A DNA stretch of 55,266 bases. Source: Longimicrobiales bacterium. GTDB taxonomy: Bacteria; Gemmatimonadota; Gemmatimonadetes; Longimicrobiales; Gaopeijiaceae. The first letter of the stretch is position 1; every line of letters begins with the position of its first letter. The notes below the pieces were generated by a model, which did not search any database, was not told where the DNA came from, and worked only from the letters and a program-made list of their open reading frames with translations. Made by a program: the position numbers and the translations under genes. The stretch is taken from the NCBI GenBank assembly GCA_028823235.1, contig JAPKBW010000018.1, positions 1 to 55,266 of the forward strand, written 5' to 3'. Below, piece after piece: positions 42,030 to 55,266 of this stretch.

Positions 42030-43376
42030 CTATTCCAGGCTCTTCCTGAGCGTGTCGACGGTCATGGAGAAGCTCCGCATACCGGAAAGCGGATCGTAGG
42101 CGACCAGCATCGCGCCTCTGTAACCAAGTCGGTCGGAGCTCGCTCCGGAGAACGCCATCAGGGTCCGCGCGAGCCCTTCCTGGGTCTCCCTGCTGAGCTC
42201 TCCACCTGACGTACCAGCGAAGGCTTCGTCAAAGAGTGCATTGAGCGGGAGCCCCTGAGGCTTCGACTCAAGCAAGGCCAAGGTCACGATCGCGACCAGC
42301 GCGTTGTGCGGGAAATTGAAGTGGAGCGCGAGGGGTGCGTAGCCGCTCCGCTCGGGACGAAACGCTTCCAGGTCCTCCAGCAGCCGTCCTCCGTGCTCGA
42401 CGAGCAACCTGCGCACCTCGGCATACTCTGTCTCGTACGGCTGGAGCAATGACGGCACCGTGCCCCGAAACGCCCAGGGATCCGCGGCCAGCGCCTGTAG
42501 AAGAGAGCCCAGGATCGCGTCCCGATCTGCAACTTCGCCTAGGTCATCCCCAGCGACTCCGGCCGCCTCATCTGGAACGGACCCCGTGTATGCTTTCATC
42601 AGCGTGCGTGTCGCATACAGCAGCCAAGGATAGTCACCCACGTTGTCGTCCCGCATGCGAACCACGTCTCGTCCGTACATCAGCCAGAAGCCCCAGCGCA
42701 GGTGCGCACTGAGGACAGCGGCGCTCACTCGTGCGAACTCGAGTTGATGCGACCAGGCCAGAGTCGAGACGCGTTCGATGATTCTGTCGTAGGCCTGCTC
42801 CTCGGGGTGAAACTGGGACAGCGCATAGATGAGGAGTGTCTCCGCATTGGACACGAACTGATGCCCACTCCCCTGTTCCCCCTGGAGTGTCGTCACGAGA
42901 CCTGTCAGCCGGTCCAGCAAGGCATCGAGGTCCTCTGCATCCCACACGCGCATCGCACAAAGGGACAGGAGGTGCAGAAAGTAGTAGTCGAGGAGGATCT
43001 CCAGCGTCATGCGATGATCCGGGTCTTCCACCTCCACACGTTCGAAGAAGTCCAGAAGCAGTACCGGAACTAAATCCTCAGTGAAGCGATGCGTCTGATG
43101 ATTCCACGAGTGAAGAACTCGGAAGCCATCTTTTCGGGTACGACCGTCGAGCTTCCGGACCAGGGTAGCGAGTCGTCCGGACACACCGTCGAACCGGTGA
43201 TCCGCCATCGCCGACCTCAACGATGTCAGCTTCGTCGAGAGGTCCGCGCCTGTTGAGAAGCCATCGACGAGGCGGGCTCTCGTGCCGTCCCCCAGCATGG
43301 CTTCAAGCAGGTCGCAGAGCTCGAGCACCTCGGCGGCACTCGATGCAGCATTCGCGGGGGCACCCGAATCAGGCAT
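42030..43376 (-). CDS. Uncharacterised 448-residue helical protein, last gene of the Pfa-like operon
   Basis: The gene begins five bases after the asparaginase stop, so the two are almost certainly co-transcribed. The protein has no signal peptide and no clear membrane helix. It is predicted mainly alpha-helical, rich in Leu, Asp, Glu and aromatic residues (DFFERVEVEDPDHRMTLEIL, DYYFLHLLSLCAMRVWDAED, HLRWGFWLMYGRDVVRMRDD). The pattern is like a soluble helical-repeat protein. I do not recognise a domain or catalytic motif. Its position at the end of a lipid-synthase operon suggests an accessory role, which is inference only. Confidence 0.8.
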   Translation of the reverse strand: MPDSGAPANAASSAAEVLELCDLLEAMLGDGTRARLVDGFSTGADLSTKLTSLRSAMADHRFDGVSGRLATLVRKLDGRTRKDGFRVLHSWNHQTHRFTEDLVPVLLLDFFERVEVEDPDHRMTLEILLDYYFLHLLSLCAMRVWDAEDLDALLDRLTGLVTTLQGEQGSGHQFVSNAETLLIYALSQFHPEEQAYDRIIERVSTLAWSHQLEFARVSAAVLSAHLRWGFWLMYGRDVVRMRDDNVGDYPWLLYATRTLMKAYTGSVPDEAAGVAGDDLGEVADRDAILGSLLQALAADPWAFRGTVPSLLQPYETEYAEVRRLLVEHGGRLLEDLEAFRPERSGYAPLALHFNFPHNALVAIVTLALLESKPQGLPLNALFDEAFAGTSGGELSRETQEGLARTLMAFSGASSDRLGYRGAMLVAYDPLSGMRSFSMTVDTLRKSLE

Positions 43377-43381
43377 ATGTG

Positions 43382-44518
43382 TCAGCGGTTGAAGTAAGTG
43401 CGTAGCTCATCCGGATTGCTCGTGTGGGTCATCGCGACCATGAGCAGTACCCGGGCCTTCCACGGACTCAGATTGTCCGCCTGAACTGCCCCCATCTCGA
43501 GGAGATCGAGGTTGTTCGCGTAGAGCGGTACGATCCTGCCCGTACTAACACGAGAGGCTACGACAACTGGAATCCCGGCTGCTCTGACCCGTCTCAAGGC
43601 CTCGAGCGTGGGTGTGCTCACATGGGCCAGACCGAGACCCGCTACCACGACGCCGTCGAGATTACCGTCTGCGAGGAGCAACTCGAGCGCTCGCCCGTCT
43701 GAGCCGGCGTATTCGCTGATGAGTACGACGTTCCCCAGTTCAGGGTCGTCTGGCAGCGGCACGGTCTGTCGACGCATGGGCGCACGATAGAAGCGCACTG
43801 CCTCGATGTCCGCGACGCCAAGCAACCCGAAGTCGAGTGTCTGGAAGGTTTCGACGTCGAGCGTGTTGGTCTTCGTGACTTCGCGCGCCGCGTTGATCTG
43901 ACCGTTCATGACAACCATCGTGCCCATGCCCACAGCTTCATCGGAGACGACGACCCGCACGGCGTTCAGCATGTTCCTTGTGCCATCAGTGTCGTACATC
44001 GTAGGTGCGCGCTGCGCACCTACAACGACCACCGGCTTCTCGCTCATGACCGTCAAGTCGAGGAAGTACGCCGTCTCTTCGAGGGTATCCGTCCCGTGCG
44101 TGACCACGATCCCTGCCACACCAGGCTCTGCAAGCAACGCGTTCGCCCGTGCAGCCAGCAGCAGCCAGATGTCCGGGGTCATGTCCCGGCTATTCACGTT
44201 CGCGATCTGCTCTACGGACACCTGTGCGATCTCGCTCAGCCCCTCGACCGAGCTGACGATCTCGTCCCCTGTCAGTGCCGCTCGTAGTGCGCCGATCTCC
44301 TCATCGTAAGTACTGGCAATCGTGCCGCCGGTCGCAAGGACGACCACGCGGGGCAACTCAGCGACTTTAACCCCGGCCGTGGTGCTGGCCGTCACCGACT
44401 GGGCTGAAGCGCCCGAGGTGCCGAGCCGCCCTGAGCGAGCGCTTGGACTTACAAGGACCGAAGCGCTGCCGAGCAGCATAAACGCTGTCGCTATTTGTAG
44501 AAGATGAGCGCGCATCAT
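43382..44518 (-). CDS. Secreted type II-like L-asparaginase
   Basis: I start at the ATG at 44518, which overlaps the upstream stop as ATGA. The frame is open to 44617, but that extension lies inside the upstream gene. The 378-residue protein has a signal peptide (about 1-40) and then both asparaginase triad motifs: VVLATGGTIAST with the nucleophilic Thr, and VVTHGTDTLEETAYF with the Thr-Asp pair. Conserved GAQRAPTMYDTDGTRN and GQINAAREVTKTNT segments follow. It hydrolyses Asn to Asp, probably in the periplasm. Its place within an operon of lipid-synthase genes is unusual, and translational coupling to the VOC gene argues it belongs there. Confidence 0.92.
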   Translation of the reverse strand: MMRAHLLQIATAFMLLGSASVLVSPSARSGRLGTSGASAQSVTASTTAGVKVAELPRVVVLATGGTIASTYDEEIGALRAALTGDEIVSSVEGLSEIAQVSVEQIANVNSRDMTPDIWLLLAARANALLAEPGVAGIVVTHGTDTLEETAYFLDLTVMSEKPVVVVGAQRAPTMYDTDGTRNMLNAVRVVVSDEAVGMGTMVVMNGQINAAREVTKTNTLDVETFQTLDFGLLGVADIEAVRFYRAPMRRQTVPLPDDPELGNVVLISEYAGSDGRALELLLADGNLDGVVVAGLGLAHVSTPTLEALRRVRAAGIPVVVASRVSTGRIVPLYANNLDLLEMGAVQADNLSPWKARVLLMVAMTHTSNPDELRTYFNR

Positions 44519-45129
44519 GCGAGATCCACCGTGCCATTGGGCGTATTCAACGTCGCGATTACCCGAGGTGATTCGCCGCCTGAAACAGACGTGTCGAGTC
44601 CGAGAGCCTGGAACCACCCACGAACGATGTCCGGCTCAGGATGTTCGACCCTCACACCCTCCAACGAGCACACCGAGGGAAGATGGGTACCGGGGTGCAC
44701 CGTGTCCCCCCAGTCGATAAAGAAAGGGATCACGCCGCCGGCGCGGTCCGCCCATGGGTCCGTAACCGTCCAACGCAGAGCACTGCCGTCCGGGCGCACC
44801 CTGCCACCCTCCGACAGTTCGCCGAGGTCGATACCGGCCTCACGTCCCGTGGCCACCAATCCCGACAAATCGCTCGCCTTCGCACACCATGTGACTAGTC
44901 GCATCTCCTTCAGGTCGCTCAGACCAAACCATCTGGGCCCAGCAGGATCAGGCTCGTCAGGGTCCACGCTGACCACCTCCATATAGCAGTCCGGGCCAAA
45001 ACCGATCAGTCGATTGCGGGTGCCGAAGCCGAGGTGCCGCCCGCCTGGTGACATCTCCACACCGAGGCGCTGCTCGATGTACTCGACGCCATCGTTCAGG
45101 TCGGGTGAGGCAAAGACTAGATGGTCCAT
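44515..45129 (-). CDS. Glyoxalase-like (VOC) domain protein
   Basis: This 204-residue cytoplasmic protein begins MDHLVFASPDLNDGVEYIEQ, the standard first strand and helix of glyoxalase-like proteins (PF13468 type). It continues LGFGTRNRLIGFGPDCYMEVV and ends with the second half of the fold (VEHPEPDIVRGWFQALG). GGAGAG lies five bases before the ATG. The start overlaps the PPTase gene by 13 bp and the stop overlaps the asparaginase ATG, so translation is coupled on both sides. Members of this superfamily include isomerases, dioxygenases and binding proteins. A role modifying or protecting the synthase product is possible but unproven. Confidence 0.85.
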   Translation of the reverse strand: MDHLVFASPDLNDGVEYIEQRLGVEMSPGGRHLGFGTRNRLIGFGPDCYMEVVSVDPDEPDPAGPRWFGLSDLKEMRLVTWCAKASDLSGLVATGREAGIDLGELSEGGRVRPDGSALRWTVTDPWADRAGGVIPFFIDWGDTVHPGTHLPSVCSLEGVRVEHPEPDIVRGWFQALGLDTSVSGGESPRVIATLNTPNGTVDLA

Positions 45130-45803
45130 TCATGCTCTCCAGGTTGTAGAATTTGAATGTCCTCAATCACCTCACTGCTCGCGAGCGCCGCAGCGTAGCC
45201 TACCGCCGTCTTGAAGTAGCGGAGGCGTTTCGCGTCGATGGCTGCCTGGATGTTCAGCTCTCCGACGTCGCCCTTCATGAGGCGCAGGCCCGCCCCATGC
45301 CGCTTGGCGAGCGCCTCCTTCGCCGTCCAGAGCCTCATGAACTCGGCATCCGCCTGCTCCCGGCTGAGTCCGGTGAGACGGCTGGCTTCGGCAGCCCCGA
45401 ACCAGCGCGTCGCGATCGCTTCGGCTCTGGGTACGGTCCGCACCTGCTCGACGTCGATGCCGAGGCTCCTCACCCCTCCTAGCGCCACGGCGAACAGGTC
45501 GCCCGTGTGCGCCACCGAAAAGGCGAGGGGTGTGGCATCCGGTCTCCCGATCGGGACATAAACGGGCTTACCGCCGGGCGCGACTACGACCCTCACCTCT
45601 CCCGGTGCGCAATCCGCCTGACGACCCAGGAGCACTCGTACGGCAGCATGTCGAGCCAGCAGAATTCGACCGCGCGCGGGATCCGCCATGCTGTCGGCCC
45701 GCCGCCGATCCTCTTCGGTTGGGAGATCGGTATCAGCGAGCGCCTCAAATGCTTCGTCCGTCACATCGACAAGCCACACGCACGGCCGCCGCGGATCGAT
45801 CAT
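45117..45803 (-). CDS. 4'-Phosphopantetheinyl transferase (Sfp/PfaE type)
   Basis: This 228-residue protein transfers the phosphopantetheine arm of coenzyme A to acyl carrier proteins. Family motifs are SVAHTGDL (His99), GIDVEQV (Asp117 and Glu119, Mg2+ ligands) and WTAKEALAKRHG (Glu163, Lys167). Length and motifs fit the Sfp/EntD group and not AcpS. The ATG directly abuts the TAA of the PfaC-like gene, with GGGAG five bases upstream inside that gene. This placement strongly suggests it activates the tandem ACP domains of the PfaA-like protein, the role of pfaE in known clusters. Confidence 0.93.
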   Translation of the reverse strand: MIDPRRPCVWLVDVTDEAFEALADTDLPTEEDRRRADSMADPARGRILLARHAAVRVLLGRQADCAPGEVRVVVAPGGKPVYVPIGRPDATPLAFSVAHTGDLFAVALGGVRSLGIDVEQVRTVPRAEAIATRWFGAAEASRLTGLSREQADAEFMRLWTAKEALAKRHGAGLRLMKGDVGELNIQAAIDAKRLRYFKTAVGYAAALASSEVIEDIQILQPGEHEWTI

Positions 45804-48800
45804 TTACGCTCCCGAACGCACTCGAACCGCAAAGCACGGGACTTCATAAATTCGGAGGCCGTCCACCCACTGCGTACCGAATATCTCCACCGTGACGGAC
45901 TCGCCTTCGACGATGTCGACCTTGAGAGCCTCTACCTCCGTGACGACTTCATCGCGAGATGGAACGACCTGTCCGCGGTACTTCCAGGAAACAGGGAAGC
46001 CCACGATCGGATGCTCCCAGACTGGATTCTCGAGACCGTCGAGCCATCCCTTCAAATGGACGAGTGCACGAGCAGACTGGACGAGCGCCTCGAGTCCGAG
46101 CGAACCGGGCTGGACCGGGTCGTCGTAGAAATGCGCCTTGAAGTACCAGTTTTCGGCACGGATTTCCTGTAACGTCCGAATTCGACCCAGGCCGGCATCT
46201 CCGGCGTCCGGCCAGAATCCAGTGACCGCGTCCAGCATGCGGATCGCACCAGACTCCATCCCAGGCAAATGCGCGAGTTCTCCGCCATCAGGGATCAGAG
46301 ACATAGGGGCGAGGTCAGAAGGCTCGATGAGGCGAGCCCGCATCTCATCGGTCATGGGAAGACCCTTCTGTTCTTCCAGAATCTTCGGACTGAAGAACCC
46401 GAAGTCCGTCTTGAGGGTCAGCACAACACCCTCCGCATCGCGACAGGTGACGTTAAAGAACACGATGCTCGTCCCGCCGGCCTTTGCGAAACGAGTCAGC
46501 TCTGTTGTGAAAGTGAGCGTGCCGATGTCCGGCCCGATGTCCTTGTAGATGGTGCAGTCATCTCCGTCGAGATTCCGGAACGCGACGTCGCCTTCCGTAT
46601 CCGCGAAGAAATTGAGGTAGCAAGAGAACCAGCCGCAGGGCTGGAGCAGAGCCTCCACAACGACCGCGAACGGCATCGTACCCTGCCCCTCTGCGAAGTA
46701 CCACGCGTCCGGGTCAACTTCGAGGGTCGATACGAGCGTGCCGGAGTCCGAGGCGGAGCCGGGCGCAACGTCGACTTCGACGATGCTGCTCATGAAGTGG
46801 TAAGGAGGACCAGGCAAGCGCGGACATTTCAGTGCCCCGTCATACTTCTCAAACATCGTCCCGAACGCGTCGCTCGGCTTGCCCCAGGCACAGGACAGCA
46901 ACGCCCCGTAGTCGCCGCGCACATCGCTGTTTCCTGGTCCGACGAGCCGGATCGGCTCCGCACCCTCCAAGAACTCACCCTTCGTCGTCAGTGGGTAATC
47001 CGGAACCAGCCGTAGGCCGAAGCGTCGGCACTGGAAGACCTTGAAGCCATCACTCGTACACAGGAGCGACGCGTAGACCTCGGGGAGGTCACCATCGATG
47101 ACCTCCTCGATGAACACTTCGTAATCCAGATCGTGCGGGCCCGTGGGAATCACCTGGCCGCGGCAGAGGAAGCGCGCCATCTCACCGGGGACCGGCTCGA
47201 AGCGCCATCCGTCGCGCGGGAGTGTGAAGCCCATCGCGGCCATCGCGAACGACAGTGCCTGAGTAGCTGCATCGGCCATCAATGTGCCGGGCATGCACGA
47301 GTCATTCTTGAAGTGCCCGTCATAGAACCAGGCATCGGCAGGTACGTGCGCCTCAGCACGGACGTAACCACGTCCCCACGGTCCACCTTCCGGCTCGAAC
47401 TCCGGTACCGAATCGATTAGACGCAGCAATCCGTTAGGTGTATTCGGCGTGCGGGTGTGGCATGAAGCCAGCTCGAAACCTTCCCCGAAGCAGGCGAAGG
47501 CATCCCCTTCGACCCATGCACCGAACTCCTCTGACGTGAAGCTCCGCTTGGTGCTCAACATCGGCGCCGGATCGAGGCGAGCGTCCGGATCGGGCGTGTC
47601 CTCGGCGGCATCCCAAAGGACACCACCAGAACCAGACAGCTCCTCTTCGGTGAAGAATCCGGCCTGTCCGTTTCGTACAGAGATCAGCAGCCGGTCACCG
47701 ACGTAGCAGTCGTAGTGGAAGAAGAAGAGACGAACGTCACCAGTCTTCGCATGACCATCGACGTAGATGTCATACGTGAGCGTCTCACCCGGCGCCGGCA
47801 GGTCGCCGTGGAACGTCAGGTCACACCCGAGCAAGCGGTATACACGATCTCCCTTGTTCAGGAAATCAGCGCCCAGCCATGAGATCAACAACAGGTCGGC
47901 CTGACCGGACTCGATCACGACGCCCGGGGCCATCCGGCCCGTGTGCAGGTACCACGCGTCTTCTTTGACGTCCGTCTCCGTGACGACACGCCCTTTCTTC
48001 ATCGTCCCCGGCTCGCCCTCGATGAGCAGCGCACGATCGGTGAAGAGGAGCGGCGGCTCCGGCATACGCACCTGACGTGCGTATCCATCCTGCTGCTCAA
48101 ATAGTTCGCCAAAGATCTCGGAGATCTTTCCTCCCGAGTGTATCTCAAGCTGTTCGCGGGTGAGGAAGACTGTGTCCGGCAGTTCGTCACGGTTGATCGG
48201 TGGTGCAACCGGGATCACCGGTGACGGCGCAGCGGACGAAGCCTTCTTGTCGGCCTTCGCCGGAGCTGCCGGAGCTGCCGCGAGGGGTGCCACTGAGGGC
48301 GCCGGAGTGTGCGCAGCAGGTGTCGCCGGCGCATCCACGACCACGCGCAGATCTGGAGCGCGCGGTGCGGCCGGTGTCGAAGTTGGAGCCGGCAGAGCAA
48401 CACTACCGGAGTCCACGACGGCGCTCAGTCCGAGCGACAGGAAGGCATCGTGCGTCTCCTTCTGCTCGCGCAGAAAGTCTGCATGGACCTGGGCGATGGA
48501 ATTAAACAGGTCGAGCGCGGCGTTTCCGGTCGGCGCCTGAAGAGCCTCGGCCGCGATCGAACCCGTGCCACCGGCCGAAGGCGTCACGGGAATCGCCGCA
48601 GGTGGCGACGCCGGCACTACGGGAGCGTCCGCAGCAGGTGTGGTCGGCGCACCGGGACTGAACTGGTGGCGCACATCGTACCCAACGCCCGATGAGGGCG
48701 GTGGTGCCATCGTTTCCCCATCTGGGGATGAAGTCGTTCCAGGCATCTCGTTCACTGCTTCAGAATGCGACGGGGCGGGCGCAGACGGCGCCACGACCTC

Positions 48801-51800
48801 TGTTTTCAGTACAGCGTTCTCGCCAAACGTGGCGGGCCAGACGACGGCTGGTGGGTGCGCAGCCAGCCGCAGGAGTGAACCCGCTGGCTCTTCGAGAGGC
48901 TGACCGCCCTCCCGGAGACCGCGCAGACGGTCGACAAACGTCTCGAGTTGCATGGGCACGCCCGTCGCCCAGAGCTTTGCGACCGACCGACCCACCGCTT
49001 CGAGACCCGCTCCTTCATGCGGATCGAGTGCCACAGCCATGTGGGGTCGCCCTTCCAGAATGCGACCCACGGCCCCTGTGACAATGGCTCGTGGCCCGTG
49101 TTCGACGAAGATCCGAACGCCGTCCGCGTAAGCCTGCTCGATCGTCTTTGGGAAGTCGATCGGATCGATCGCCTGCTGCGTGATCGCGTCAGCGGCGGCC
49201 TCTCTGGTCGGTACATAGGCACGGTTTCCGGCATTCGTGTAGAACCGGATATCGGGCACCTCGCGCGTGTCGCGCGAGTGAATGTCATGCCAGGTCTTCT
49301 TGAATGGGGCCAGTGGCGCGGCGTGAACGATCATGTCCAGGCCGAGCTGAATCGCCTTGTTCCGTCCAACCGCCTCAACCACTCGATCACAGCCAGCAGC
49401 GTCTCCGCCGATGACCACGTCTTCGTAGTGGTGGATAACCGTTAGATAGACACGATCCTCGCCCTCCATCGCCGCCTCGACGACCGCGAGCGGAGCGGCA
49501 ATGCGGAAGTTCTTCCAGTCGGGTAGCTCGCCTTCGGGCAGTCCCCAGTATGTCGCCGCAGACCGGCACTCGCCGGTCAACTGATTCACGTACATCTCGG
49601 ACGTATTGATCTCGACGAGCATGTCATCGAGGTCGTGCCAGACACCGAACGCCATGAGGGAGTTCGTCTCACCCGACGAGAGTCCAAGAGCAACCTGAGG
49701 TCTCATGCCGAGGATGTCGCGCGTGAACTCCGTGTGCGCCTGACAGACAAAGGACGAACCCTGTAGCTGGGTCGCCGGCGAGAACGGCTCAACGTCGGCT
49801 CCGTACAACGTGGCAGCGAGGCTCGGAGTTCCGTCGAATTTCACTGCGAGGTTGTGACCAATCTTTGGGAAGGCGAGGAGGAGATCTCTCGCCGCGCCTG
49901 GGTAAGCGGCCGCCGCCCCGGTGTAGCAGAACGCGACTTCGCCTTCCGGCCTGCCTTCGCCATAGAACAACCCCGGTGCAGACGGCACACGTCCTTCCGC
50001 CAACTCACCGGCGGCATGGGCTCGGAGACGCTCCACTTCTTCGAAAGTTTGCCCCACGAGGGCCAGTCGAACGCTGCCCTGATGGACCTGCAGGCCAGCA
50101 GCCACCGTCGCAGCTAATTCGCTTATCGAATCAGCGGCATGGAAGTGGATCACAGGCGCGTCGACAGGCGAGATGGCATCCGTCGTAGCCGCAGGAGCTG
50201 CCAGCTGAACGGTCGACGCGAGCCCCGAGTACGAGGTCACGGACGCGGTGGTGTGAACCAGGTCCTGACGTCGAGGAGCAGGCCACGCGCCCTCTCGATC
50301 AATCACGGCGCCCAGGTGGGCCGTGACTGCGCCCGCTGCGACGTGAAGCAGCCCCGACGCTCCGTGGGCGTGGCCGAACCGCGCCGTCACTTCGCTCTCA
50401 CCGGTCTCCGGCACGAGGGCGAGGTCTACCGCTCCGACTTCGGGCTCGTCCATATCCTCGACGAGCGAAGCGAAGATGGGATAGCCCTTCTCGGTCGCAT
50501 CACGCTCACGCATGAGGACCATCGCGACCGCCACATCTCCGGGTCGCTGGCGATCTGCGGGCAGCACGGATGCCGCTGCAGCGCGGTGCGACAGCTCGTG
50601 GGAGAAATCCGATGCCCCCACGAGAGCCGCGTCGATCTCACCGGCCTGGAGCGCACGGACTGCGAGCTTCAGCGCGTCGAGGCCAGACAGCTCCTCGCTC
50701 GCAACCGTAAAGCCAGGGGCGCGCCAATCCTGCTGTGCGTGTACGCGATTCGCAGGAATGTTCGGCATGCAGCCGATCACTCCGGCAGCCGTCAGATGAC
50801 GCGCCGCCCGATCATTCACATCGCGCCAACCGGCCATATCGGCGTCGGGGCCAAGCAATTCCCGAAGCCGAACACGCAATCCGTGTCGAGCTACCTGAGG
50901 ATCGACGCACATCCCAATGTAGACACCCGTCCGATCAGGATTGAGGCCGCCGACCTGACCCAGGGCCTCTTCGACCACTTGGAGGATCGATGTCTGTTGG
51001 GCAAGGCTTTCCTGCAAATCATTCGGAGGAAACCCGAGCTTCGTCATCGAAAGGACGATCTCTTCGGTCCGCGTTGACTCCTCTCCTCTCGCCTCGACCA
51101 ATCGACGCACGAAGGCCGGAAGCCCGACCTGGTCGCCCGCGATCACACCGAGGGCCGAGATTGCCACGGCCTGCGCGATCTTTTCGGCAGGATCAGATCG
51201 CGGCAAAGACACCGCAGGTGCCTCGCCCGTCCATTCCTCGACGATCAGGTGGGCGTTGTTCCCGCCAAAGCCGAAGTTCGAGATCGCCGCGCGGCGCGGG
51301 CCCTTGCTCTTCCAGGGCTCGGCTTCAGCCAGTAGACGGAAGCCCTGCTCATCGATCATGCTGAGCGGATCATCGCAGGGCGTTGGTGGGAGGAGACCCG
51401 CTTCGAAAGCGCTGAGCATCTTGAGGAGGCTCGCGACTCCCGATGCAGTAATCGGATGCCCGATGTTGCCCTTCAGTGACCCGATCACCGGCTTAGGTCC
51501 GTCACCCCAAAGCAGAGCAAGAGACTCGAGCTCGATGCTGTCGCCTCGAGGCGTTCCCGTGGCGTGGCACTCGATGAACCCGATGTCCTGAGGGGTTAGT
51601 CCGGCCTGGGCGTACGCGGACTTCATGGCCCGCACCTGTCCGTCCGCCGAGGGGGCAAGGAATCCACTCTGCCGCCCGTCGTTAGAGAGGCCGATCCCGC
51701 GAATGACTCCGAAGATCCGGTCGCCCGACTCCACAGCATCGTCGAGCCGCTTGAGTGCGACTAGTCCCGCACCTTCAGCGGGGAGCAATCCGTCTGCGGC

Positions 51801-52544
51801 CTTGTGGAACGGACGTGACTGGCCTGTCGGGCTCAACGCCTGAAGCGCGGTGAATCCCAGGTGAATAAAGAGTGGATCCGCACGTGCCACACCGCCCGCC
51901 AACATGAGGTCGGCTTCGCGGTCCTGGAGGCGCCGACAGGCGATCTCCAGGGCGTAGAGTGAGGACGCGCAGGCAGCGTCGAGCGCAAACACGTCCCCTG
52001 TGAGCCCATATGCAGCCGCTACGACATGCGCCGGCCCACCCGAGGAGAAGCGATTCCGGGCATCGGACCTGCCATCATCCAGGCCAGGCTTCGGCGCATT
52101 TTGTCCCTCGCCAAGCCAGAAATCCTCAACGAAGCGAGTATGCTCGACTGTCGGATATGAAAGGTTGCCGATCACCAGCCCCGTCCCAGGCGGCGGTGTA
52201 TCAACGCCCGCTTCCCCGAGAGCGACCCCCGCGCAATGAAGCAGCCACTGGGTCAGCGTGTCGAGACGGTGAGGCTCATCGATGCGGTCGGCAAGCGTAG
52301 ATACGTCGAAGACCTCGTCGAAGCCGGTGACATACCCACCACGATTGCTCACGACGTGCTCTGCACCGACACCTGGCGACTTGTCCGCCAGCAGCTTCTC
52401 GGAATCGATCCCCCAAGCTCCGGCAGGCGCCTCTCCAATAAGAACACGGGCGTCCCGAACGGCTTCGAACAAAGCCTCAGGGCTCAGCGCCCCGGGCAAC
52501 ACGCAGGATCGCCCAACAACCGCGATGGGCTCAAAACTACTCAT
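45804..52544 (-). CDS. pfaC: PfaC-like iterative synthase, KS-CLF-AT-DH-DH
   Basis: This 2246-residue megasynthase has an intact ketosynthase (about 1-440) with Cys192 in DAACASSLY, His327 in CHATGT and His363 in GNIGH. A chain-length-factor domain (about 455-790) has no active Cys (FTVASEELSG). An acyltransferase (about 860-1215) has Ser956 in GLSSGE. After an Ala/Pro linker (about 1245-1450) come four hotdog units forming two FabA-like dehydratases (about 1465-1850 and 1880-2245), with catalytic-type His in LHTGRMAPG, DGHFKNDSCMPG and KAHFYDDPVQPG. The third unit reads GQGTMPFAV, the usual His-less form. GGAG lies seven bases before the ATG. An AT inside this subunit, rather than in a separate PfaB, matches the myxobacterial Pfa3 type. 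No acyltransferase of the AGPAT type follows. A secondary-lipid or polyene product is equally possible. Confidence 0.93.
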   Translation of the reverse strand: MSSFEPIAVVGRSCVLPGALSPEALFEAVRDARVLIGEAPAGAWGIDSEKLLADKSPGVGAEHVVSNRGGYVTGFDEVFDVSTLADRIDEPHRLDTLTQWLLHCAGVALGEAGVDTPPPGTGLVIGNLSYPTVEHTRFVEDFWLGEGQNAPKPGLDDGRSDARNRFSSGGPAHVVAAAYGLTGDVFALDAACASSLYALEIACRRLQDREADLMLAGGVARADPLFIHLGFTALQALSPTGQSRPFHKAADGLLPAEGAGLVALKRLDDAVESGDRIFGVIRGIGLSNDGRQSGFLAPSADGQVRAMKSAYAQAGLTPQDIGFIECHATGTPRGDSIELESLALLWGDGPKPVIGSLKGNIGHPITASGVASLLKMLSAFEAGLLPPTPCDDPLSMIDEQGFRLLAEAEPWKSKGPRRAAISNFGFGGNNAHLIVEEWTGEAPAVSLPRSDPAEKIAQAVAISALGVIAGDQVGLPAFVRRLVEARGEESTRTEEIVLSMTKLGFPPNDLQESLAQQTSILQVVEEALGQVGGLNPDRTGVYIGMCVDPQVARHGLRVRLRELLGPDADMAGWRDVNDRAARHLTAAGVIGCMPNIPANRVHAQQDWRAPGFTVASEELSGLDALKLAVRALQAGEIDAALVGASDFSHELSHRAAAASVLPADRQRPGDVAVAMVLMRERDATEKGYPIFASLVEDMDEPEVGAVDLALVPETGESEVTARFGHAHGASGLLHVAAGAVTAHLGAVIDREGAWPAPRRQDLVHTTASVTSYSGLASTVQLAAPAATTDAISPVDAPVIHFHAADSISELAATVAAGLQVHQGSVRLALVGQTFEEVERLRAHAAGELAEGRVPSAPGLFYGEGRPEGEVAFCYTGAAAAYPGAARDLLLAFPKIGHNLAVKFDGTPSLAATLYGADVEPFSPATQLQGSSFVCQAHTEFTRDILGMRPQVALGLSSGETNSLMAFGVWHDLDDMLVEINTSEMYVNQLTGECRSAATYWGLPEGELPDWKNFRIAAPLAVVEAAMEGEDRVYLTVIHHYEDVVIGGDAAGCDRVVEAVGRNKAIQLGLDMIVHAAPLAPFKKTWHDIHSRDTREVPDIRFYTNAGNRAYVPTREAAADAITQQAIDPIDFPKTIEQAYADGVRIFVEHGPRAIVTGAVGRILEGRPHMAVALDPHEGAGLEAVGRSVAKLWATGVPMQLETFVDRLRGLREGGQPLEEPAGSLLRLAAHPPAVVWPATFGENAVLKTEVVAPSAPAPSHSEAVNEMPGTTSSPDGETMAPPPSSGVGYDVRHQFSPGAPTTPAADAPVVPASPPAAIPVTPSAGGTGSIAAEALQAPTGNAALDLFNSIAQVHADFLREQKETHDAFLSLGLSAVVDSGSVALPAPTSTPAAPRAPDLRVVVDAPATPAAHTPAPSVAPLAAAPAAPAKADKKASSAAPSPVIPVAPPINRDELPDTVFLTREQLEIHSGGKISEIFGELFEQQDGYARQVRMPEPPLLFTDRALLIEGEPGTMKKGRVVTETDVKEDAWYLHTGRMAPGVVIESGQADLLLISWLGADFLNKGDRVYRLLGCDLTFHGDLPAPGETLTYDIYVDGHAKTGDVRLFFFHYDCYVGDRLLISVRNGQAGFFTEEELSGSGGVLWDAAEDTPDPDARLDPAPMLSTKRSFTSEEFGAWVEGDAFACFGEGFELASCHTRTPNTPNGLLRLIDSVPEFEPEGGPWGRGYVRAEAHVPADAWFYDGHFKNDSCMPGTLMADAATQALSFAMAAMGFTLPRDGWRFEPVPGEMARFLCRGQVIPTGPHDLDYEVFIEEVIDGDLPEVYASLLCTSDGFKVFQCRRFGLRLVPDYPLTTKGEFLEGAEPIRLVGPGNSDVRGDYGALLSCAWGKPSDAFGTMFEKYDGALKCPRLPGPPYHFMSSIVEVDVAPGSASDSGTLVSTLEVDPDAWYFAEGQGTMPFAVVVEALLQPCGWFSCYLNFFADTEGDVAFRNLDGDDCTIYKDIGPDIGTLTFTTELTRFAKAGGTSIVFFNVTCRDAEGVVLTLKTDFGFFSPKILEEQKGLPMTDEMRARLIEPSDLAPMSLIPDGGELAHLPGMESGAIRMLDAVTGFWPDAGDAGLGRIRTLQEIRAENWYFKAHFYDDPVQPGSLGLEALVQSARALVHLKGWLDGLENPVWEHPIVGFPVSWKYRGQVVPSRDEVVTEVEALKVDIVEGESVTVEIFGTQWVDGLRIYEVPCFAVRVRSGA

Positions 52545-52569
52545 GTACGACTCCGTTCAACTTTTTCGA

Positions 52570-55266
52570 TCAGGCGCCCGGCGCGTCGAACTGCACTTCG
52601 CGCAGCTCGGCAACGAGGTCGCCATCTTCAGTCGCAAGAATGAAATCGAACAGCGTGCCTCGCTCCGTCTGCCGTGCCCGGAACGCCGACCTCAGCTGCT
52701 CAGGAATCGACTCGAGGTGGTGCACGACCATCGTGCCCATGCTGGCGATCTTCTCCATGGCACCGGCCTTCTGGTGCGTCCAGAGCTCTCCGAGTTGCAG
52801 GAGCCCCTCGAACGTCGCCGGGTCAAACCCACGCGAGAACGCCTTGGGCGGCCACCCAAGACTGGTGGCACTTCTCAGCAACGCCATCCCACCCTCTTCG
52901 GATACGCCCTCCAAGTCGACGATCGAGCGGTAGGAACTCGCGTTCCCGAGAACCTCATAGGCGCCTTCCGGCTCGAACGGCCACGGCTCTAGGCCACCTG
53001 ACGGGACCGACGGTGGCGGGGTCGCGCCATTCTCATCGTACCGAACCGTCGTCTCATGGTGCACCGTACCTACCGCGTCCTTGAACATGAGGCGGTACCC
53101 GGGGATCGCACCCTCGATCGGATGAACCTCGACGGTGTGACCACCCTCCGACGGGTTCGTGTCCTGACCGGGCATCGCGATCACGAAGTCTTCCAGGTAC
53201 ATGCGCATGGTCCGGACAGGCTTGAGGGCCTGTCCGATCCGCAGCGCAAAGTCAGCAACCATCGCAGGAGCGAGTCGGCCATTCGCCGATCCGTTGCCCG
53301 CAGCCTCGAGCGCTGTCGCGGCCGGGAACGAAAGCGTGTGCATGCTCGCCGGGAAAGAAGGAGCCGCGAGCACGACGCGCTCGACGCCCTCACCGTCCAA
53401 ACTGAGCTCATCGACAAAGAACTGAGCGCCGAGATCGACATCAAGAAGCGCGATGCCCTGCTTCTCGAAGTGAGCGGCCAGGCCTGCATCGACCATTCCG
53501 CCCGCCCACGGGCCCCAGTTGTAGGACCGCACCCGGCACCACTCGCCGCGGCGTTGTGCCTCAGCGGCAGCAACCTTGTTGAGCACTTCATTAGCAGCAG
53601 CGTAGGCCGACTGGCCTGCGTTTCCAGCTCGTGCTGCGATCGAAGAGAAGATCGCGATCAGTTGGATCGGGTCCTCTTTCGTCGCCTCGAGCAGTACGGA
53701 CAGACCGCCGACCTTCGGGCCGAACACATCTGCTACCCGGTCGGGCGTCATGTCTACGATCGCCTTGTCACGCAGCACCCCGGCCCCATGAACGATGCCG
53801 TCGATCGAGCCCCAGGTCTGGCGGACCTGATCGAGCGCTGCCTGAACCTGCGCAGGATCGTTGACGTCCGCGCTCAGATACATGGCGTCGACGCCGCGGG
53901 CGTCGAGATTGGCCAATGACATCTGCACCTCGGCACTCGCCGCGAGTGACTGCGCCTGCTTCTGAATGCCTGTGAAGTCGACCGTCTGGCCCTTCTTACT
54001 CGCGACAGCCGCGAGGGCTCCCGTGATCTGCACGGAGTCGGTCGAGAGAGGAACGCCCTCAGGCCACTCAGCAAGAGCTGACCGCCCAAGGAGAGCAAGC
54101 TTCACATTCCACTCTTCGGCGAGGCGCGCGACCGAACTTCCGGTAACGCCTCGCGCTCCGCCCGACACGATAATCACGGATCCAGGCTCGAGTGCCGCAG
54201 ACTTTGTTCCGGTCATCGTCAGCGGCTCGATCTGCACGACCGCCCGGGCGCCGTCGGCCCCAATGCCAACTTCGAGGGCCGGACCGCCAAGGAAGAGTTC
54301 GTCGATAATCTCGGCCGCCGCGGTCGAGGGATCGGCTACATCGATGGCCTTGAGTGATGCACCGGGCCATTCGCGCGCCGCGGTCTTCACGACACCTGCC
54401 AGGCCACCGGTCCACGCTCCGGCTCCGGGATCGCCGGCGAGACCGAAGTCCCCGCCAGTCGACTGGATCGTAACGAAGACCCGCTCTGACGACTCCGGGT
54501 GCTGCGCGACCATACGGGCCGCCTGAATCGCATTCTGGTGAACGGCGATCGCGCCGTCTGCGCCGACCTGATGACCTCCCAGGCCCGCCAGGCTAATCAC
54601 GGCCCGGGCAGAAGCCGACGGGACCTCAACAATGACCGGCTCGAGCCCGCGTTCCTTGAGTCCTTCTGCAAGCTCGCCCGCCAACTCCGTGTGCTCTGAT
54701 GTAATCTCGACCGAGGTACCCTCGGAAAGCCCAGCGAGACCGAACCCAGGCCGGAGCTCAGAAACGATCCGCGGAACGAACGCAGAGACGGTGGTGGCAT
54801 CCACGACCATCGGTGTCACCGCAGAAGAAGCGACCGGCGCCGCTGCTGCTGCCTGCGGAGCCACCTCAACTACTGGCGCCTCGACAACGGCAGGAGCCGC
54901 CGGTGTTTCTACCGGAGCCGCGATACCGCCAGCCAGCCTGTCCGCTACATCCCGTAGTGTGCGAAGCGTGGCCAACTCAGACGGAGCGATCTCCGGCATG
55001 CCAGGGATTCGCTCCTGGAGCTCGGACAGAATCTCGACCTGCTTGATCGAATCGATTCCGAGACCGGCTTCCATTTCCATGTCCAGATCGAGCATTTCGA
55101 CCGGGTAACCAGTCTTCTCAGCTACGACCTCGAGCGCGAGCGCCGTCACGTCTATATCGGGCGTTGCGGCTGCAACCAATGCCGCAGGTGTCGCAGGTGC
55201 AATGCTCGGTCCCGCCGCTGCCGCAGGCATACCGGCGATCAGCTTGTCCGCGACATCACGCAGCGT
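52570..55266 (-). CDS. pfaA: PfaA-like synthase, C-terminal part (ACP-ACP-KR-DH), N-terminus off the window
   Basis: The frame is open to the right edge. Its first residues, TLRDVADKLIAG, are the end of one ACP and repeat the end of the next (TLRDVADRLAGG). One complete ACP follows (about residues 47-112) with the phosphopantetheine Ser in LGIDSIKQ at about 73. After an Ala/Pro/Val linker there is a ketoreductase (about 155-650) with NADP motif GGARGVTG and catalytic Ser, Tyr and Asn in FSS and SAYAAANE. The last 230 residues are the PfaA terminal dehydratase-like region. The expected KS, acyltransferase and further ACPs must lie to the right. The gene ends 25 bp before the PfaC-like gene. 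Confidence 0.93.
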   Translation of the reverse strand, partial: TLRDVADKLIAGMPAAAAGPSIAPATPAALVAAATPDIDVTALALEVVAEKTGYPVEMLDLDMEMEAGLGIDSIKQVEILSELQERIPGMPEIAPSELATLRTLRDVADRLAGGIAAPVETPAAPAVVEAPVVEVAPQAAAAAPVASSAVTPMVVDATTVSAFVPRIVSELRPGFGLAGLSEGTSVEITSEHTELAGELAEGLKERGLEPVIVEVPSASARAVISLAGLGGHQVGADGAIAVHQNAIQAARMVAQHPESSERVFVTIQSTGGDFGLAGDPGAGAWTGGLAGVVKTAAREWPGASLKAIDVADPSTAAAEIIDELFLGGPALEVGIGADGARAVVQIEPLTMTGTKSAALEPGSVIIVSGGARGVTGSSVARLAEEWNVKLALLGRSALAEWPEGVPLSTDSVQITGALAAVASKKGQTVDFTGIQKQAQSLAASAEVQMSLANLDARGVDAMYLSADVNDPAQVQAALDQVRQTWGSIDGIVHGAGVLRDKAIVDMTPDRVADVFGPKVGGLSVLLEATKEDPIQLIAIFSSIAARAGNAGQSAYAAANEVLNKVAAAEAQRRGEWCRVRSYNWGPWAGGMVDAGLAAHFEKQGIALLDVDLGAQFFVDELSLDGEGVERVVLAAPSFPASMHTLSFPAATALEAAGNGSANGRLAPAMVADFALRIGQALKPVRTMRMYLEDFVIAMPGQDTNPSEGGHTVEVHPIEGAIPGYRLMFKDAVGTVHHETTVRYDENGATPPPSVPSGGLEPWPFEPEGAYEVLGNASSYRSIVDLEGVSEEGGMALLRSATSLGWPPKAFSRGFDPATFEGLLQLGELWTHQKAGAMEKIASMGTMVVHHLESIPEQLRSAFRARQTERGTLFDFILATEDGDLVAELREVQFDAPGA

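Follow-up and report, generated by a model that had tools for sequence, protein, structure and literature searches.

The window analysed here, a stretch of 55,266 nucleotides from a Longimicrobiales bacterium, is the whole of contig C18 (JAPKBW010000018.1) in a genome of 3.14 Mb (GCA_028823235.1; 97% complete, 90 contigs), and its host belongs to the Gemmatimonadota, as an earlier note on this DNA had supposed. The phylum is judged from named congeners, the genome containing no 16S gene. At the high end of the contig, all on the minus strand, lie the genes of a Pfa-type (secondary-lipid) synthase: the C-terminal 898 residues of PfaA (52570-55266), in a frame that is still open at the contig end; a complete PfaC-type protein of 2246 residues (45804-52544) with the order ketosynthase (KS), chain length factor (CLF), acyltransferase (AT) and two dehydratases (DH); and a phosphopantetheinyl transferase (PPTase) of the Sfp/HetI type, which begins directly past the PfaC stop codon. 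The intergenic gaps of 25 bp (PfaA-PfaC) and 0 bp (PfaC-PPTase) lead us to read the three genes as an operon, the GC content of which is similar to that of the remainder of C18. Domain matches bear out the earlier identification of a Pfa-type operon comprising a PfaA C-terminus, a complete KS-CLF-AT-DH-DH protein and an abutting PPTase. The description of the PfaA C-terminus as two acyl carrier protein (ACP) domains, a ketoreductase (KR) and a DH holds only in part: the KR and the DH fold are there, but they are preceded by one complete ACP and a tail of ~20 residues (~1.3 ACPs), and the DH is catalytically degenerate. The operon is also shorter than the 42030-55266 first assigned to it, the lower ~3 kb being occupied by non-Pfa genes.

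The missing half of the system came to light when a PfaC search of the genome matched KS and AT domains at the beginning of another contig, C25. Here 1307 residues with the order KS-MAT-ACP-ACP (MAT, malonyl acyltransferase; C25:3-3923, minus strand) run off the contig start, and this PfaA fragment by itself scores 1111 bits against TIGR02813 (omega_3_PfaA; cut-off 1010). It adjoins a pfaD gene (C25:3932-5575, minus strand) that contains the single match in the genome to the PfaD family model TIGR02814 (C25:4004-5329, 614 bits against a curated cut-off of 449), and for which the best-scoring solved structures are PfaD or enoyl reductase (ER) domains of polyunsaturated fatty acid (PUFA) synthases (4yx6, 6lkc). 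The KS-MAT, extra ACPs and PfaD ER that the earlier note had suggested looking for are accordingly all found upstream, on C25 in this genome and contiguously in its congeners. The final 55 bp of C18 are identical to C25:50-104, inside the second ACP of C25, indicating that the assembly broke in the tandem-ACP array; these common 55 bp are an ACP repeat and the two ends have no exact overlap, so that the join between C18 and C25 is made on the basis of synteny in congeners.

The catalytic motifs are kept in both KS domains (Cys-His-His), MAT (GHSFG), the ACPs (DSI), KR, AT and both FabA-like DH domains (Table 1). The FabA family matches PfaC in three stretches (E 6.2e-69), and both FabA-like DHs retain their catalytic residues in every member of the clade that was checked. 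The PfaC KS-CLF is homologous to PDB 6riw "ORF10", which we take to be Moritella PfaC. The DH1 motif reads HFKNDSCMPG here, as against DPCMPG in all congeners seen and most relatives, a substitution that adjoins the active site.

Table 1. Domains of the Pfa-type synthase encoded in the window, with positions on contig C18.
Feature	Position	Strand	Observation
ACP tail, last ~20 residues	55207..55266	-	contig ends here within ACP array
Complete ACP of PfaA, GIDSIK	54934..55134	-	PP-binding domain match
KR of PfaA	53503..54177	-	PF08659, E 1.6e-36; catalytic S-Y-N in place
PKS-type DH fold, PfaA C-terminus	52573..53352	-	HxxxGxxxxP gone, Asp to Glu; predicted inactive
PfaC KS	51225..52544	-	E 7.7e-53; Cys-His-His in place
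CLF	50160..51182	-	KS-like, without active-site Cys
PfaB-like AT fused into PfaC, GLSSG	48900..50147	-	PfaB-like match, stretch 867-1162
FabA-like DH1	46965..48161	-	HF..D..MPGTLMADA..Q, His + Asp
FabA-like DH2	45807..46937	-	AHF..DPVQPGSLGLE, His + Glu
PPTase (PfaE role)	45117..45803	-	PF01648

Congeners with long contigs carry the genes in an unbroken series, (DUF1028)-(amidase)-pfaD-pfaA-pfaC-PPTase-(glyoxalase)-(asparaginase)-(h448), in which pfaA encodes KS-MAT-ACP-KR-DH with 4-5 ACPs where these can be counted. Identity to the congeners is mostly 65-77% for PfaA, PfaC and PfaD and 45-53% for the PPTase, the position of which is constant in eight loci. Two further genera (G036, G061) have different neighbours on both sides and keep the four genes, and because the flanking genes vary between genera in this manner we regard pfaD-pfaA-pfaBC-PPTase as the conserved unit. 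Counting PfaD only above the TIGR02814 cut-off, we find it in all 14 genomes of the genus, in 21/121 genomes of the family and in 19 of 395 genomes drawn from the phylum as a whole. A clearly distinct Pfa type, with PfaD at 47-48% identity, occurs in other genera of this family (G088/G089, G119/G120). Further distinct Pfa-type clusters occur in other genera and families of Gemmatimonadota (L028, L029, L030, L031, L118, L119; ER ~45-52% identity), and are probably separate acquisitions.

The genes at 42030-45129, encoding a 448-residue protein, an asparaginase and a Glyoxalase_3 protein, form a neighbourhood specific to the genus and lie outside the synthase system; a tailoring role for them was weighed and dismissed, since they are not beside the operon in other genera. 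The PPTase, Glyoxalase_3 and type II asparaginase frames (43382-45803, minus strand) overlap head to tail, in an order kept in congeners, and may be co-transcribed, with no obvious connection to lipid synthesis. The 448-residue protein (42030-43376, minus strand) is mostly helical and adjoins the asparaginase in congeners (58-60% identity, L128-L131), with many residues invariant, including HFNFPHN; a Pfam search gave no match, and comparison of its predicted model with the PDB gave no fold match with E <0.001.

Relatives were sought with the DH region against 84,980 species genomes. After Gemmatimonadota, the matches were to a Rhodospirillaceae bin (61% identity), other alphaproteobacterial bins (58-59%) and Mycolicibacterium/Mycobacterium (55-60%). 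The window clade, made up of its own genus and genera g4 and g18, is sister to a mycobacterial/Caulobacteraceae clade in three trees, built from the PfaC-KS (SH-aLRT support 99), the PfaA-KS (94) and a concatenation of five domains (100). In the KS tree that the earlier note had proposed as a check, the PfaA-KS falls within a Pfa clade separate from the KS domains of modular polyketide synthases (PKS; CurL, EryA) with support of 99, and not amongst the latter. Constraining all Gemmatimonadota Pfa sequences to a single clade was rejected by the five-domain concatenation (lnL -263.6, p-AU 1.3e-67) and not by KS1 alone (p 0.15; KS2 rows L050, L071 and L099 were removed from this tree before the constraint test). 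Because the concatenation rejects a single clade, independent horizontal acquisitions of Pfa genes within the Gemmatimonadota appear likely. In a first KS2 tree the L031 row is probably a KS1, its contig stopping in PfaA, and L118 forms a long branch; no conclusion here draws on either row. In L076 and L078, two contigs assigned to Acidobacteria by binning, the Pfa genes are almost identical with Hyphomonas sequences, reflecting either recent transfer or mis-binning. Plasmid AZO_p1 of Azospirillum lipoferum 4B (L120) carries related pfaD, pfaA and pfaBC genes, the PfaA being without a DH tail, and has no genes in this region in the PLSDB table.

What sets the window clade apart is the PKS-type DH with which PfaA ends. 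Its HxxxG motif is absent from all 10 distinct loci of the clade that were examined (L038-L040, which duplicate three of these, were not counted separately), and the partner Asp is changed in most of them, to Glu. The tail itself is nonetheless retained, at 259-274 residues, and its predicted structure (pLDDT 79) is that of a PKS dehydratase, matching the CurF DH with Z 22.9 and rmsd 3.0 over 245 residues. Within the clade, pairwise identity is 44% in the former catalytic loop as against 60-74% in other parts of the domain. Relatives that retain a PfaA tail of ~280 residues (other Gemmatimonadota types, Bacteroidota, mycobacteria) still have the catalytic His residue in HxxxGxxVxP; in L080 and L100 the apparent gaps in the motif are substitutions that leave this His in place. 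Some alphaproteobacteria are without the tail entirely. The domain is therefore predicted, from its sequence and modelled fold, to be catalytically dead but structurally retained. In PUFA synthases the PKS-type DH is assigned to dehydration that is followed by ER reduction, and the FabA-like DHs to dehydration with isomerisation to cis double bonds (PMC9702510). By analogy, loss of the former would leave all dehydration to the FabA-like pair.

No condensation domain of a nonribosomal peptide synthetase (NRPS) was detected in this 97% complete genome, and the carrier domains found were the Pfa ACPs and one ACP on contig C8 beside a FabF-like KS, presumably the ACP of type II fatty acid synthesis. 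With no condensation domain and a single spare carrier domain, the synthase stands alone, and the PKS and NRPS genes near pfa genes by which hybrid PKS-NRPS-PUFA clusters are recognised (PMC13291983) are absent here.

Taken together, these observations make it probable that the locus is a complete, stand-alone Pfa-type (secondary-lipid) synthase operon, pfaD-pfaA-pfaBC-pfaE, making a long-chain, probably polyunsaturated acyl chain. We infer that the enzyme is active, as well as the nature and fate of its product, which, as the earlier note also held, is not predictable from sequence alone. By analogy with characterised synthases, the PPTase would arm the tandem ACPs and MAT would load malonyl units, with condensation by the PfaA-KS and the PfaC KS-CLF and ketoreduction by KR. 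The FabA-like DH pair would perform every dehydration, and could isomerise the products to non-reducible double bonds, with PfaD saturating the remaining trans-2-enoyl units. PfaB is described as a terminal acyltransferase (PMC12895367), and the fused PfaB-like AT may end the cycle by transferring or releasing the long acyl chain, which is probably polyunsaturated, for use in cell lipids. The PKS-type DH would persist as a structural remnant. Several points weigh against this assignment. FabA-like DH motifs also occur in synthases that make hydroxylated or amino lipids, so that "polyunsaturated" is not proven, and the division of labour between DH types derives from few characterised enzymes. 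The PfaA of this genome is divided by the assembly gap, its middle being reconstructed from congeners, and no lipid-handling gene (e.g. for an acylglycerolphosphate acyltransferase, AGPAT) was recognised amongst the immediate neighbours examined, Ole genes not having been searched for.

A classical methylene-interrupted PUFA for membrane phospholipids, of the eicosapentaenoic acid (EPA), arachidonic acid (AA) or docosahexaenoic acid (DHA) type, would agree with the full domain set (including two FabA-like DHs, ER and PfaB-like AT), with the PfaA score above the omega_3_PfaA cut-off, and with a stand-alone genus-core operon resembling the EPA cluster present in all Shewanella analysed (PMC3098273). 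We nevertheless consider such a product doubtful, as the trees place the synthase at a distance from Moritella and from the split-pfaA type of Bacteroidota, and group it instead with mycobacterial and alphaproteobacterial synthases, of which three have been reported alongside NRPS or PKS-NRPS genes; moreover, the degenerate PKS-type DH is the one assigned to saturating cycles (PMC9702510), and EPA/DHA/AA synthases (types A, B and D) are characterised by an active one at the PfaA C-terminus. Somewhat more credible, though still short of an even chance, is another secondary lipid, with a very long chain that is hydroxylated, partly unsaturated or saturated, for an envelope glycolipid or similar. 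Most Pfa types have products that are unknown, and some make structural non-PUFA products (Shulse and Allen, PMC3098273), whilst dehydratase loss could leave hydroxyls or alter the pattern, as in the early cycles of chitinimine (PMC13291983); yet both FabA-like DHs are catalytically intact in the clade members checked, and the flanking genes examined included no recognisable glycosyltransferase or other tailoring gene. The more specific proposal that all cycles pass through the FabA-like DH/isomerases, to give a core membrane or envelope lipid of this uncultured genus with a double-bond pattern unlike those of EPA, DHA and arachidonic acid, appears unlikely.

Two further explanations carry little weight. 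That the acyl chain is a building block of a hybrid lipopeptide, with partner genes elsewhere in the genome, is suggested by a sister group that includes clusters of M. fortunisiensis, Mycolicibacterium CBMA 234 and M. simulans beside PKS and/or NRPS genes; given the genome-wide lack of a condensation domain and the single non-Pfa carrier domain, this is close to refuted, and the least probable reading of all. It would be almost as surprising were the locus a decaying or mis-binned remnant without function: whilst one domain has lost its active site and there is an assembly gap within pfaA, the frames are open, their synteny and conservation extend across the genus and to two additional genera, the remaining catalytic motifs are intact, and GC content matches the rest of the contig.

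We found no report of a Pfa synthase in Gemmatimonadota in the literature searched, coverage of which was incomplete. The kind of synthase is already known; what is new is a genus-core Pfa cluster in Gemmatimonadota, its position beside mycobacterial hybrids without their partners, and its degenerate PKS-type DH. In this widespread and barely cultured phylum the Pfa cluster is a genus-core trait, apparently horizontally acquired, and the lineage nearest to it feeds peptide hybrids in mycobacteria. Loss of an active site with the fold kept amounts to a natural experiment on the question of which dehydratase in a PUFA synthase determines the double bonds, and the operon offers a marker gene for what may be a lipid biomarker.

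Secondary-lipid synthases comprise 20 types in 10 phyla (PMC3098273), and the features by which Shulse and Allen (2011) recognise them are present here: PfaA with KS-MAT-tandem ACP-KR, PfaC with KS-CLF and FabA-like DHs, a PfaD ER, a PPTase in the cluster, and KS domains that group with Pfa and not with modular PKS. A heterocyst glycolipid synthase (type F, hgl), a placement that by the earlier note would have refuted its reading, is ruled out, since HglC is a KS-CLF-AT protein without DH domains (PMC3098273) and here two FabA-like DHs follow the AT. Marine EPA/DHA synthases (types A and B; Shewanella, Moritella) have the same catalytic domain set with homologous PfaD (4yx6, 6lkc) and KS-CLF (6riw), but are distant in the KS2 tree, and in the present operon pfaB is fused into pfaC, pfaD stands first and the PPTase last. 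Bacteroidota type D (Persicobacter, L121) likewise has PfaD and a fused KS-CLF-AT-DH-DH, the KS and DH regions of its PfaC being 31-37% identical to those of the window, and differs in a split pfaA with a separate KR protein and in an intact PKS-type DH motif. Myxobacterial three-gene pfa1-pfa2-pfa3 clusters, compared here by their described architecture (PMC9702510), also encode ER, then KS-MAT-ACPn-KR-DH, then KS-CLF-AT-DH-DH, whereas here there is no AGPAT domain and the PPTase lies within the operon. Closest are the mycobacterial and Caulobacteraceae-bin synthases (L045, L049, L056, L061, L063), with the same KS-MAT-ACPn-KR-DH and KS-CLF-AT-DH-DH proteins and 55-60% identity over the DH region; these keep the catalytic His of the PfaA-DH HxxxG motif, which is erased in the window clade. 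M. fortunisiensis TNTM28 and Mycolicibacterium CBMA 234 have hybrid PKS-NRPS-PUFA-like clusters, and M. simulans a related cluster with NRPS and without PKS genes (PMC13291983), L056 and L061 being strains of the "clade IV" hybrids of that study. In three of the species compared (L056, L061, L063) the literature describes a link between the synthase and PKS and/or NRPS genes, whereas that of the Gemmatimonadota stands alone.

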